The notes beneath the pieces are model-generated. The model did no database searches. It was given only the letters and a program-made list of their open reading frames with translations, and was not told where the DNA came from. A stretch of DNA of 5,027 nt from an uncultured Nitrospira sp. (GTDB lineage: Bacteria; Nitrospirota; Nitrospiria; Nitrospirales; Nitrospiraceae), in the NCBI GenBank assembly GCA_946479785.1, contig CAMLHQ010000141.1:1-5027 (forward strand), in the 5' to 3' direction. Positions 2,175-3,705 of the stretch are shown here, one piece after another (the first letter of the stretch is position 1; each line of letters opens with the position of its first letter). Position numbers and translations under genes: made by a program.

Positions 2175-2196
2175 ATGATGAAGAATTCTTCATGAT
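2175..2196. repeat. 22-bp imperfect palindrome, likely operator half of element A
   Basis: The 16-bp perfect core (2178-2193) extends to 22 bp with only one mismatched pair, at 2177/2194. The core geometry, ATGAAGANNTCTTCAT, has the same length and outer bases as the CusR box known from enteric bacteria (ATGACAANNTTGTCAT). This suggests a dimeric CusR-type regulator as ligand, but that is inference. It could also extrude as a hairpin. Confidence 0.6.
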
Positions 2197-2231
2197 CCGT
2201 TCACGGACCGATCATGTGACGGGGCTACAGT
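2178..2231 (+). promoter_or_regulatory. Promoter element A: palindrome, 11-bp-phased repeats and -10
   Basis: Seen in the sequence: a perfect 16-bp palindrome (2178-2193, arms ATGAAG and CTTCAT), whose right arm is also the first of three hexamers spaced exactly 11 bp apart: CTTCAT (2188-2193), GTTCAC (2199-2204), GATCAT (2210-2215). A 10-nt spacer leads to TACAGT (2226-2231), a 4/6 match to TATAAT. No TTGACA-like -35 is present. Known: OmpR/PhoB-family regulators bind direct repeats with 11-bp period, and a Pho box takes the place of the -35, ending about 10 nt before the -10. Inference: this is an activator-dependent promoter for the zinc-ribbon gene, with transcription starting near 2238 and a leader of about 68 nt. 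A second TACAGT at 2250-2255 is less well placed. The near-copy at 3652-3705 with identical spacing strongly supports function. Confidence 0.7.
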
Positions 2232-2305
2232 GACACCGACGGCTGAGGATACAGTAGCGTTCTGATGCCACGCACATCGCGTCGAACCAATAACCGAGGT
2301 GAATC

Positions 2306-2638
2306 ATGGAATCGATAATGGAGTCGAAAGAGCCGACGTGGGGCAGAATCATGTCACAGAGTGGAAATGGACATGCCATTCGGTTCCTTCGGGCGAGCGA
2401 GCAGTTCCACACGAGATCCTGCGCTCGTTGCGCGGGTCTGCTGGTGAACGAGTGGTGCTATGACCTGCCTAACACCGGCGAATACAACGCCAAAGTTCTG
2501 CGCTGTGTGCAATGCGGGCACCGCATTGATCCTGTGATCTTGGGGAACCAAATCCAGCCGAGGGGCGAAAGCCAACGAGCACGGCGCTTGCGGCATGAGT
2601 ACTCCGTGAGAGCTGTCATGTCGGGTGAAGTCGCATGA
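2306..2638 (+). CDS. Small four-cysteine zinc-ribbon protein (110 aa), function unknown
   Basis: A short soluble protein with no signal peptide or membrane segment. It has two CxxC knuckles, C39-A-R-C42 and C67-V-Q-C70 (followed by Gly71), 24 residues apart, as in rubredoxin-like zinc ribbons that hold one metal ion. The first knuckle is followed by GLLVNEW and the second by GHRIDPVILGNQ, a pattern I recall from short uncharacterised proteins of Nitrospira genomes. The basic C-terminal tail (about residues 85-100, RGESQRARRLRHE) could contact nucleic acid. Start chosen at ATG 2306 because GAGGTGA (2296-2302) is a good Shine-Dalgarno; in-frame ATGs at 2318 and 2351 lack one as good. It is preceded by promoter element A, so it is probably controlled by a response regulator. 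The fold is well supported; the function is unknown, with DNA/RNA binding or metal sensing the plainest options. Confidence 0.8.
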   Translation: MESIMESKEPTWGRIMSQSGNGHAIRFLRASEQFHTRSCARCAGLLVNEWCYDLPNTGEYNAKVLRCVQCGHRIDPVILGNQIQPRGESQRARRLRHEYSVRAVMSGEVA

Positions 2639-2956
2639 CCTGTAACACCAGACATAAAACGGGGGCACGCGGAGGATCCACTCCCTTTCCTTTACGTGGG
2701 GATAAGAAGTGTTCGATCAGATCACATTTCCACCCCGTGCGCACCGAGCGGCATCGCACAGGTATGACATGGTGGCAATTAAAACGATCGTCACGACAGG
2801 TCCACTCACGAGCCAGCGTTCTCAAATGATTATGAAGGTTCGCTGGGTCGGTGTGAAGCAGTAGATCACAGTGGTTTGATTCTTGCGCATAAGAACTTCC
2901 ACGAGGGTATGAGGAAGGCACATACAAAGGGCGATCGATAAGGCGAGGACCTCACG
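2639..2956. other. Gene-poor gap of 318 bases before the transaldolase
   Basis: No confident gene, tRNA or recognised RNA family is visible. Contents: weak pairing GGAG (2671-2674) with CTCC (2681-2684) followed by a pyrimidine-rich run; GTGCG (2737-2741) pairing with CGCAC (2755-2759); an inverted repeat TTCTT/AAGAA (2880-2895); and an open frame at 2709-2864 that could encode 51 residues. A 64-codon frame starting at 2635 overlaps the zinc-ribbon stop as ATGA, but its product looks non-natural. The transaldolase promoter should lie here, yet no convincing -35/-10 pair is visible. The A/B promoter element does not occur in this gap. Confidence 0.6.
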
Positions 2957-3604
2957 ATGAAACTCTATTTGGACACCGCGAACGTAAAAGAGATTGGGGA
3001 GGCGGCGAGTCTAGGCGTACTGGACGGTGTGACGACAAACCCGTCGCTCGTCGCGAAAGAAGGCCGGGTGTTTCGCGAAGCGCTCGTCGAGATCTGCAAC
3101 ATTGTCGATGGGCCGATCAGCGCCGAGGTCGTCAGTCTCGAAGCCGATGCGATGGTGAAAGAAGGGAAGGAACTCGCCAAGATCCATAAGAACATTGTCG
3201 TGAAGGTACCGCTGATTCCGGAAGGACTCAGGGCGACGAAACGGATGGCGGCGGAGGGGATCAACGTCAACATGACTCTGTGCTTCTCCCCCACGCAAGC
3301 GTTGCTGGCGGCAAAAGCCGGCGCCTGGTGCGTCTCTCCGTTTATCGGTCGATTAGACGACATCAGCTCAAACGGGATGGAGTTGGTCCGTCAGATTGTG
3401 ACGATCTACAAGAACTATGACTTCAAGACCTCTGTGTTGGTGGCGAGTGTCCGCCACCCGCAGCACGTGGTCGAAGCGGCGCTGGCCGGCGGCCATATCT
3501 GTACCATGCCGTTCTCTATTTTCAAGCAGCTCGTCAAGCACCCGCTCACCGACCTGGGTATGAAAAAGTTTCTAGCGGACTGGAATGCTCAACTCCAAAG
3601 GTAA
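2957..3604 (+). CDS. tal: Transaldolase, small TalC/FSA (MipB) family (215 aa)
   Basis: Cytoplasmic class I (Schiff-base) enzyme of the non-oxidative pentose phosphate pathway, moving a dihydroxyacetone unit between sedoheptulose-7-phosphate and glyceraldehyde-3-phosphate. It is a complete single-domain (beta/alpha)8 barrel of the family's usual length (about 215-220). Signatures: MKLYLDTANV at the N-terminus with Asp6, GVTTNPS (24-30, phosphate/active site), and IVVKVPLIPEG with the Schiff-base Lys83. Glu57 (SAEV) and Phe129 (SPFIGRLD) stand where E. coli fructose-6-phosphate aldolase has Gln59 and Tyr131; these are the transaldolase-type residues, so transaldolase activity is more likely than aldolase. 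Start ATG 2957 has GAGGA (2945-2949) 7 nt upstream. It stands alone, with gaps on both sides, and shares no obvious function with its neighbours. Databases may label the same family fsa or talC. Confidence 0.95.
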   Translation: MKLYLDTANVKEIGEAASLGVLDGVTTNPSLVAKEGRVFREALVEICNIVDGPISAEVVSLEADAMVKEGKELAKIHKNIVVKVPLIPEGLRATKRMAAEGINVNMTLCFSPTQALLAAKAGAWCVSPFIGRLDDISSNGMELVRQIVTIYKNYDFKTSVLVASVRHPQHVVEAALAGGHICTMPFSIFKQLVKHPLTDLGMKKFLADWNAQLQR

Positions 3605-3651
3605 CCAATGGTTAGCGATGGACGTACGCATCCGGGACCGGTGGGGGTCGA

Positions 3652-3705
3652 ATGAAGAGTACTTCATGTTCAGTTCACGGAGTCTTCACGTTGAGAGGCT
3701 ATGAT
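3652..3705 (+). promoter_or_regulatory. Promoter element B: near-copy of element A before winged-helix gene
   Basis: Seen: an imperfect palindrome with ATGAAG (3652-3657) and CTTCAT (3662-3667) arms around AGTA; three hexamers spaced exactly 11 bp apart, CTTCAT (3662-3667), GTTCAC (3673-3678) and CTTCAC (3684-3689); then a 10-nt spacer and TATGAT (3700-3705), a 5/6 match to the -10 consensus. It aligns without gaps to 2178-2231 with 38 of 54 positions identical and 26 of 30 over the first part. No TTGACA-type -35 is present. Inference: an activator-dependent promoter used by the same response regulator as element A, starting near 3712 and giving a leader of about 33 nt to the ATG at 3745. The stronger -10 and more regular third repeat suggest higher expression than element A. 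Confidence 0.75.

Follow-up and report, generated by a model that had tools for sequence, protein, structure and literature searches.

The two near-identical elements found in the stretch of DNA analysed here (5,027 nucleotides, hereafter the window) are very probably activator-dependent promoters, which the phosphorylated OmpR/PhoB-type response regulator encoded upstream of the first of them would bind and activate. The element recurs across Nitrospira relatives, and we conclude that the two-component regulon it marks is real and apparently undescribed; among the literature matches listed for regulation in Nitrospira and comammox bacteria, titles and abstract openings contain no description of such a site. 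That this particular response regulator is the binder, and that binding leads to activation, we infer from the sequences, their spacing, their conservation, their co-occurrence and their neighbourhood. Nitrospira are important nitrifiers in soil and water treatment, and to our knowledge the control of transcription in these bacteria is little mapped.

The window derives from a relative of Nitrospira, as the homologues of its genes that are named in the sources belong to Nitrospiraceae or Nitrospira. Two named genomes with a relative of its 81-aa gene (two loci in a scan of named genomes) are likewise Nitrospira-type MAGs. The window opens on the end of a response regulator (RR) gene, which is followed by a histidine kinase (HK) gene, element 1, a zinc-ribbon gene, an aldolase gene, element 2, an 81-aa gene, an S24-peptidase gene and the start of a further gene (Table 1). 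The RR combines a receiver with a Trans_reg_C domain and adjoins a HisKA/HATPase kinase, all above the Pfam cut-offs, and 11-bp phased tandem half-sites are present in both window elements and in the alignment of relatives' elements described below; both features place the pair among the OmpR/PhoB-family two-component systems. The best NCBIfam models are TIGR01387 (heavy-metal response regulator) for the RR and TIGR01386 for the HK, each with a score under its cut-off. Neither the zinc-ribbon protein nor the 81-aa, supposedly winged-helix protein has a Pfam or NCBIfam match, and both labels stem from a preliminary description of this stretch; the names given in the sources to homologues of the former include 'C4-type Zn-finger protein'. 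Positions 2100-2700 of the window had no match in a plasmid collection.

Table 1. Features of the window, in order of position.
Feature	Position	Strand	Role	Basis
OmpR/PhoB-type response regulator (RR); N-terminus missing at window start	3..611	+	proposed DNA-binding activator	Pfam Response_reg + Trans_reg_C
Sensor histidine kinase (HK)	620..2059	+	partner of the RR	Pfam HAMP, HisKA, HATPase_c
Element 1	2178..2231	+	composite activator site plus -10, predicted promoter of the zinc-ribbon gene	sequence match, R1, matrix
Perfect 16-bp palindrome of element 1, ATGAAGAATTCTTCAT	2178..2193	.		sequence
11-bp phased half-sites of element 1: TTCA 2189, TTCA 2200, ATCA 2211	2189..2214	+		sequence; consensus columns 13, 24, 35
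-10 hexamer of element 1, TACAGT	2226..2231	+		consensus columns 50-55, TAnAGT
Zinc-ribbon protein, 110 aa	2306..2638	+	predicted target gene of element 1	289 homologues; element directly upstream in 7/11 orthologues
Fructose-6-phosphate aldolase / transaldolase	2957..3604	+	between both elements, attributed to neither	TIGR00875 above cut-off
Element 2	3652..3705	+	putative promoter of the same composite type, weaker match	R1, matrix
Palindrome arms of element 2, ATGAAG-AGTA-CTTCAT	3652..3667	.		sequence
11-bp phased TTCA half-sites of element 2: 3663, 3674, 3685	3663..3688	+		sequence
-10 hexamer of element 2, TATGAT	3700..3705	+		sequence; offset equal to that of element 1
Small protein, 81 aa (winged-helix in the preliminary description)	3745..3990	+	presumed target of element 2	45 homologues
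S24-peptidase protein	4063..4710	+	possibly transcribed from element 2 with the preceding gene	Pfam Peptidase_S24

The preliminary description had singled out the two elements as a near-identical 54-bp pair, and the pair is real. Aligned without gaps, they agree at 38 of 54 positions and at 26 of the first 30; these are the top counts for direct 54-mers and 30-mers in the window, and both exceed the maxima of 30 first-order Markov simulations (30-33 and 20-22). The palindrome arms, the 11-bp phased repeats and the edges of the -10 also lie as claimed, save that the third repeat of element 1 is ATCA and not TTCA. With the relatives included, the consensus consists of ATGAAG-N4-CTTCAT, TTCAT-type repeats 11 and 22 bp past the TTCA of the palindrome and, 10 bp further on, TAnAGT. 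Element 1 starts 118 bp beyond the end of the RR-HK operon. A sigma-70 consensus promoter scan of the window detected neither element, which is consistent with an absent -35. GGACCG had been noted as well, 15-17 bp upstream of both palindromes. Its placement is accurate (plus-strand starts at 2163 and 3635, 15 and 17 bp ahead), but it carries no meaning and we reject it as a component of the site: it occurs five times on the plus strand of the window and only 6 of the 173 elements introduced below, the window's own two among them, have it in the 40 bp upstream.

A pattern search identified two further elements in Nitrospira sp. S2bin.16 (G002), 2.3 kb apart and flanking the orthologous RR-HK operon. 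An alignment of 21 relatives' elements from pattern-found loci, with the window excluded (A2), is the basis of a sequence-only model (R1) and of a scoring matrix. The rows of A2 were hand-picked with the sequences in view, the criterion being a promoter-like right side, so that the occurrence of TCA at columns 36-38 and of A at column 51 in 21 of 21 rows is not a choice-free count. The alignment omits the RR-proximal divergent elements of L077, L078, L080, L082, L090, L091 and L013, the overlapping second palindromes of L079 and L085-L087, the second element of L081, L075, and L092 (a near copy of L089); it retains the RR-proximal elements of L076, L084 and L088.

Applied to the window, R1 assigns 51 bits to element 1 (E 4.5e-16), 26 bits to element 2 (E 2.8e-8) and at most 3.2 bits elsewhere, and the matrix gives 63.9 and 29.4, with the reverse strand of element 2 at -12 and everything outside the elements at -21 or below. 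The matrix exceeds 5 at 91 places in 60 real loci and nowhere in six shuffles or the reversed sequence, the control maxima being -2.9 (six shuffles, 3.1 million positions) and -4.6 (reversed sequence). Among 118 family genomes, R1 finds the element in 72 at E<=0.01 and in 60 at E below 1e-5, with the same spacing; these matches support the earlier suggestion of a regulator site and a regulon. Many of the family genomes are split into many contigs. Because, in a scan of 61 genomes under stricter filters, the 52 that lie beyond the 175 family genomes (G176-G227) yielded a single weak match (G216, E 0.0099), the element looks family-specific. Counting the window, 173 elements in 109 loci have a matrix score of at least 10; one place can contribute both strands, and the set was found with a matrix that already contained the features counted.

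With 1.5 kb between them, the two similar copies in the window could in principle be remnants of a duplicated stretch or of a mobile repeat and not sites that selection has maintained. We regard such an origin as highly improbable, as the likeness ends at the site, the conserved columns are the half-sites and the -10, the pattern stands ahead of several unrelated gene families in the 109 loci, and no shared flanking DNA was seen beyond the site in those element contexts of relatives that were examined.

The preliminary description left the regulator of the elements unnamed; most likely it is the RR-HK pair directly upstream. Matches scoring over 400 bits, which corresponds to some 50% identity upwards, were taken as HK orthologues; a wide score gap separates them from paralogues, and the remaining matches reach at most 36%. 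By this definition 61 of 118 family genomes have an orthologue of the window HK. The HK and the element (E<1e-5) occur together in 57 of the genomes, the HK without the element in 4, the element without the HK in 3 and neither in 54. The HK genomes that miss the cut are G072 (1.6e-5), G108 (3.2e-5), and G021 and G111, both without a match; the element occurs with no HK orthologue match in G027, G109 and G117, the last of which has HK fragments only. Fisher's test gives p 1e-24, a value uncorrected for kinship and inflated by it, and the co-occurrence in part reflects shared ancestry. Therefore we give more weight to position than to co-occurrence.

The 61 genomes hold 63 HK loci (two genomes have two), and in 45 of these an element lies within 700 bp. 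A same-strand element follows the HK within 700 bp in 42 of the 63 loci, and in 19 the 700 bp ahead of the RR start contain an element; 13 of those 19 are divergent elements 127-195 bp ahead of the RR start, in relatives of G002. In the other six (L073, L153, L154, L155, L162 and L194) an element 391-527 bp upstream is aimed at the RR gene, and in L073 and L155 a micro-ORF intervenes; the RR of L073 is 90% identical to that of the window. OmpR-type sites resemble each other, and ten loci of one clade carry the RR-HK genes without an adjacent element, as would be expected if another OmpR-type regulator of the same genomes bound the elements and the neighbouring RR-HK pair were merely one target. 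However, the elements co-occur genome-wide with this HK, are frequently adjacent to RR-HK and are in part aimed at the RR gene itself, so that we consider control by another regulator unlikely and retain the neighbouring RR as the probable binder.

The ten loci (L175, L181, L185, L187-L193; HK identity 59-61%) belong to the 18 of 63 HK loci that have no element within 700 bp, and in one of them, L193, the downstream sequence amounts to 166 bp only. Of the others, L089, L092, L199, L200 and L180 have a more distant element within the locus, L182 has none near the HK and only 151 bp of downstream sequence, and L159 and L201 have none in the locus. Nine of the ten genomes of the 59-61% clade carry elements elsewhere (G021 has none), and no RR or HK match of at least 40% was seen beside them. 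In eight of the nine these elements form a back-to-back or overlapping pair (L079, L085-L087, L202-L204, L210), and in L075 there is a single one. The paired elements of these eight loci and of L205 look as if an RR-HK operon between them, compare G002, had been lost or moved.

We propose that the phosphorylated RR occupies an array of TTCAT-type half-sites, of which three are direct and a fourth is inverted. The palindrome ATGAAG-N4-CTTCAT consists of this inverted half-site and the first direct one, and the three direct ones are phased by 11 bp. The last half-site ends 10 bp ahead of the -10, in the usual -35 region, where the bound RR may touch RNA polymerase and thus substitute for the absent -35. 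In the window, element 1 would drive the zinc-ribbon gene, and element 2 the 81-aa gene, perhaps together with the S24 gene that follows. An element upstream of the RR gene in relatives would provide autoregulation, and others would serve further targets. Judging by the closest families and by the targets, we guess at envelope or metal stress as the signal.

The site looks like a hybrid of PhoB-type direct repeats and a CusR/HprR-type palindrome. The E. coli CusR/HprR box, CATTACAAAATTGTAATG in the part of PMC9302797 drawn on here, is a palindrome of the same length (18 bp) with CAT...ATG ends and shares 11 of 18 letters; cusR boxes also autoregulate, according to an excerpt of PMC10920338. 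The heavy-metal RR model is the best-scoring one for the RR described here. Unlike the CusR/HprR box, the element adds 11-bp phased direct half-sites, and both proteins stay under the heavy-metal subfamily cut-offs. The TIGR01387 scores are 254.3 and 265.7 for the full-length RRs of two relatives and 230.5 for the partial RR of the window, against a cut-off of 279.2; the TIGR01386 scores of the HKs are 246.9 (window), 247.8 and 259.4, against 292.55. As all scores are under the cut-offs, we do not assign the pair to the heavy-metal subfamily (CztR-SilR-CopR / CztS-SilS-CopS) or call it CusRS. The pho boxes of E. coli PhoB consist of two direct repeats of 11 bp (PMC3978041, in part), and PhoB-type activators keep a strict spacing to the core promoter (PMC10294691, in part); the element resembles them in both respects, and differs in its TTCAT half-site and its extra inverted half-site. 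Nor do the RRs of the relatives score as PhoB, with 193.2 and 199.7 against the PhoB cut-off of 296.2.

The candidate targets in relatives are diverse. Downstream genes were taken as the longest ORF starting within 450 bp, without a gene finder, so several small clusters are probably not real genes; domains were searched on one representative of each named target family. The elements precede a mannose-1-phosphate guanylyltransferase-like protein (13), a protein of about 106 aa without a domain match (9), the zinc-ribbon protein (7 including the window, with L074 an eighth), a lipoprotein-like protein of about 216 aa (6), RND permeases (4), AmoC (4), an Slp-family lipoprotein (4), an alpha carbonic anhydrase (3) and, in L156 and L160, a molybdopterin oxidoreductase. 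RR-type proteins follow seven elements: the RR itself in L073, L153, L154 and L155, and proteins of 126-178 aa in L158, L263 and L264. The elements of L263 and L264 are weaker (32 and 14) and stand ahead of short receiver-like proteins, in genomes (G082, G065) with no HK orthologue match.

For the window itself, two regulon members had been suggested, the zinc-ribbon gene and the winged-helix gene, and of these the first is borne out by orthologous regions. Among 11 zinc-ribbon orthologues (E<=1e-20), the element lies directly upstream in 7 (that of L301 is the L206 element) and 1.2 kb upstream in L297, and L302, L304 and L305 have none; of 9 weaker matches, none has an element. Site 1 is thus conserved, behind the HK and ahead of zinc-ribbon orthologues. 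In L207, a short, remnant-like aldolase match (839-937; 33 aa, 58%) lies between the zinc-ribbon and S24 genes.

For site 2, no such conservation was found. Orthologues of the 81-aa gene occur in G001 (L001 and L219, apparently one place, 71%), in G022 (L014, 62%) and twice in G090 (L220, L223), and each is followed by matches to the S24 gene and the next gene. Closer relatives of the 81-aa protein (P0121-P0123, 93-96%) are encoded on metagenome contigs. An element precedes the 81-aa gene in 0 of 4 loci in these 3 genomes, a weak test given that the gene is split in L220 and L223 and S24 is in pieces in L014, and on this result we do not regard element 2 as a promoter conserved with the 81-aa gene. 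In G090, where both RR-HK and elements are present, the element-less 81-aa copies thus lie outside the regulon. Element 2 is nevertheless a putative site by its own sequence, which scores far above every control, and it is this sequence that suggests the 81-aa gene as a second member. Perhaps the element was gained when the cassette came to lie behind the aldolase gene. The 81-aa gene, the S24 gene and the next gene (window 3745-5026; L001, L014, L220, L223) travel together to different places, some copies being in pieces.

The 81-aa and S24 genes both sit behind element 2, and S24 homologues are found near elements in several loci, which would suit an arrangement in which one of these two proteins acts as the regulator, with the elements as operators. 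Their distribution makes this hardly credible. S24 homologues (E<=1e-30) are present in 21 of 118 genomes, compared with 60 of 118 for the element, and 81-aa orthologues (<1e-30) in 2 of 175 genomes; a third genome has two split copies, and no element stands ahead of any of these genes. A LexA / S24 operator and an 81-aa regulator are accordingly rejected, S24 not tracking the element, and the RR remains our candidate.

Many elements in relatives are followed by very small membrane proteins. An ORF counted as a microprotein if it lay within 420 bp, was no longer than 60 codons, carried a ribosome-site pattern and reached a Kyte-Doolittle mean of at least 1.9 over 17 residues. Such a single-helix ORF follows 46 of the 173 elements, compared with a mean of 3.4 (maximum 6, 20 draws) for random places in the same loci, which are mostly coding; under stricter limits (at most 45 codons, within 200 bp) the count is 36 of 173, compared with a random mean of 0.9 (maximum 3). 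A matched test on 141 elements, which left out 32 of the 173 as divergent pairs or for too little sequence, gave 36 and 29 downstream and 2 and 1 on the upstream side, opposite strand. The microproteins are mostly 25-36 aa and several unlike sequence families recur, the elements of related genomes not being independent. Elements with such an ORF include those of L163-L168, L171, L179, L180, L183, L230, L231 and L253; neither element 1 nor element 2 of the window precedes one.

The gene amoC, with a match to AmoC in 66 of 175 family genomes (the query itself scores above the NF041641 cut-off), also lies behind elements in comammox-type relatives. Among 33 distinct amoC copies with a readable start, which are part of the copies listed, 16 have an element within 1,100 bp upstream and 17 have none. 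Seven of these elements lie at 207-307 bp (G072, G116, G110, G100, G154, G108, G155; matrix 14-34), all ahead of copies in the group with 90% or more identity to the query. Another seven lie at 739-787 bp (L283, L247, L281, L228, L284, L294, L239; matrix 12-43), and in the three inspected, L228, L247 and L239, a gene of 220-225 aa stands between the element and amoC. Two more are at 151 bp (11.3) and 172 bp (a marginal 3.4). By locus, the two layouts comprise L166, L178, L235, L242, L268 and L270-L272 on the one hand and L228, L239, L247, L281, L283, L284 and L294 on the other. In G072 and G110, amoC lies 0.7-1.8 kb behind RR-HK. Since no AmoA-size ORF directly follows amoC in the seven loci with listed ORFs (L166, L178, L235, L242, L228, L239, L247), these seven copies look non-operonal.

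Comammox genomes contain at least one non-operonal amoC, and the amoC3 of ammonia-oxidising bacteria is stress-controlled, as stated in the part of a review drawn on here (PMC6311188). The singleton amoC3 of Nitrosomonas is similar in being a non-operonal amoC under dedicated control. It differs in that the control is exerted by a sigma factor, whereas here a two-component-type site is predicted from sequence, and this outside the window, in comammox-type relatives.

On balance, with confidence somewhat above even, we hypothesize a family-wide two-component regulon in which microproteins with a single membrane helix (mostly 25-36 aa) are activated along with envelope and respiratory genes. In comammox-type genomes this regulon would have recruited singleton amoC repeatedly, in two promoter layouts, and a site combining palindrome and direct repeats would thereby link nitrification to a signal of the envelope type. 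The clear signature of the site and a named candidate regulator provide a testable regulon, including the non-operonal amoC of comammox-type genomes, and one that would also take in tiny membrane proteins easily overlooked by annotation.
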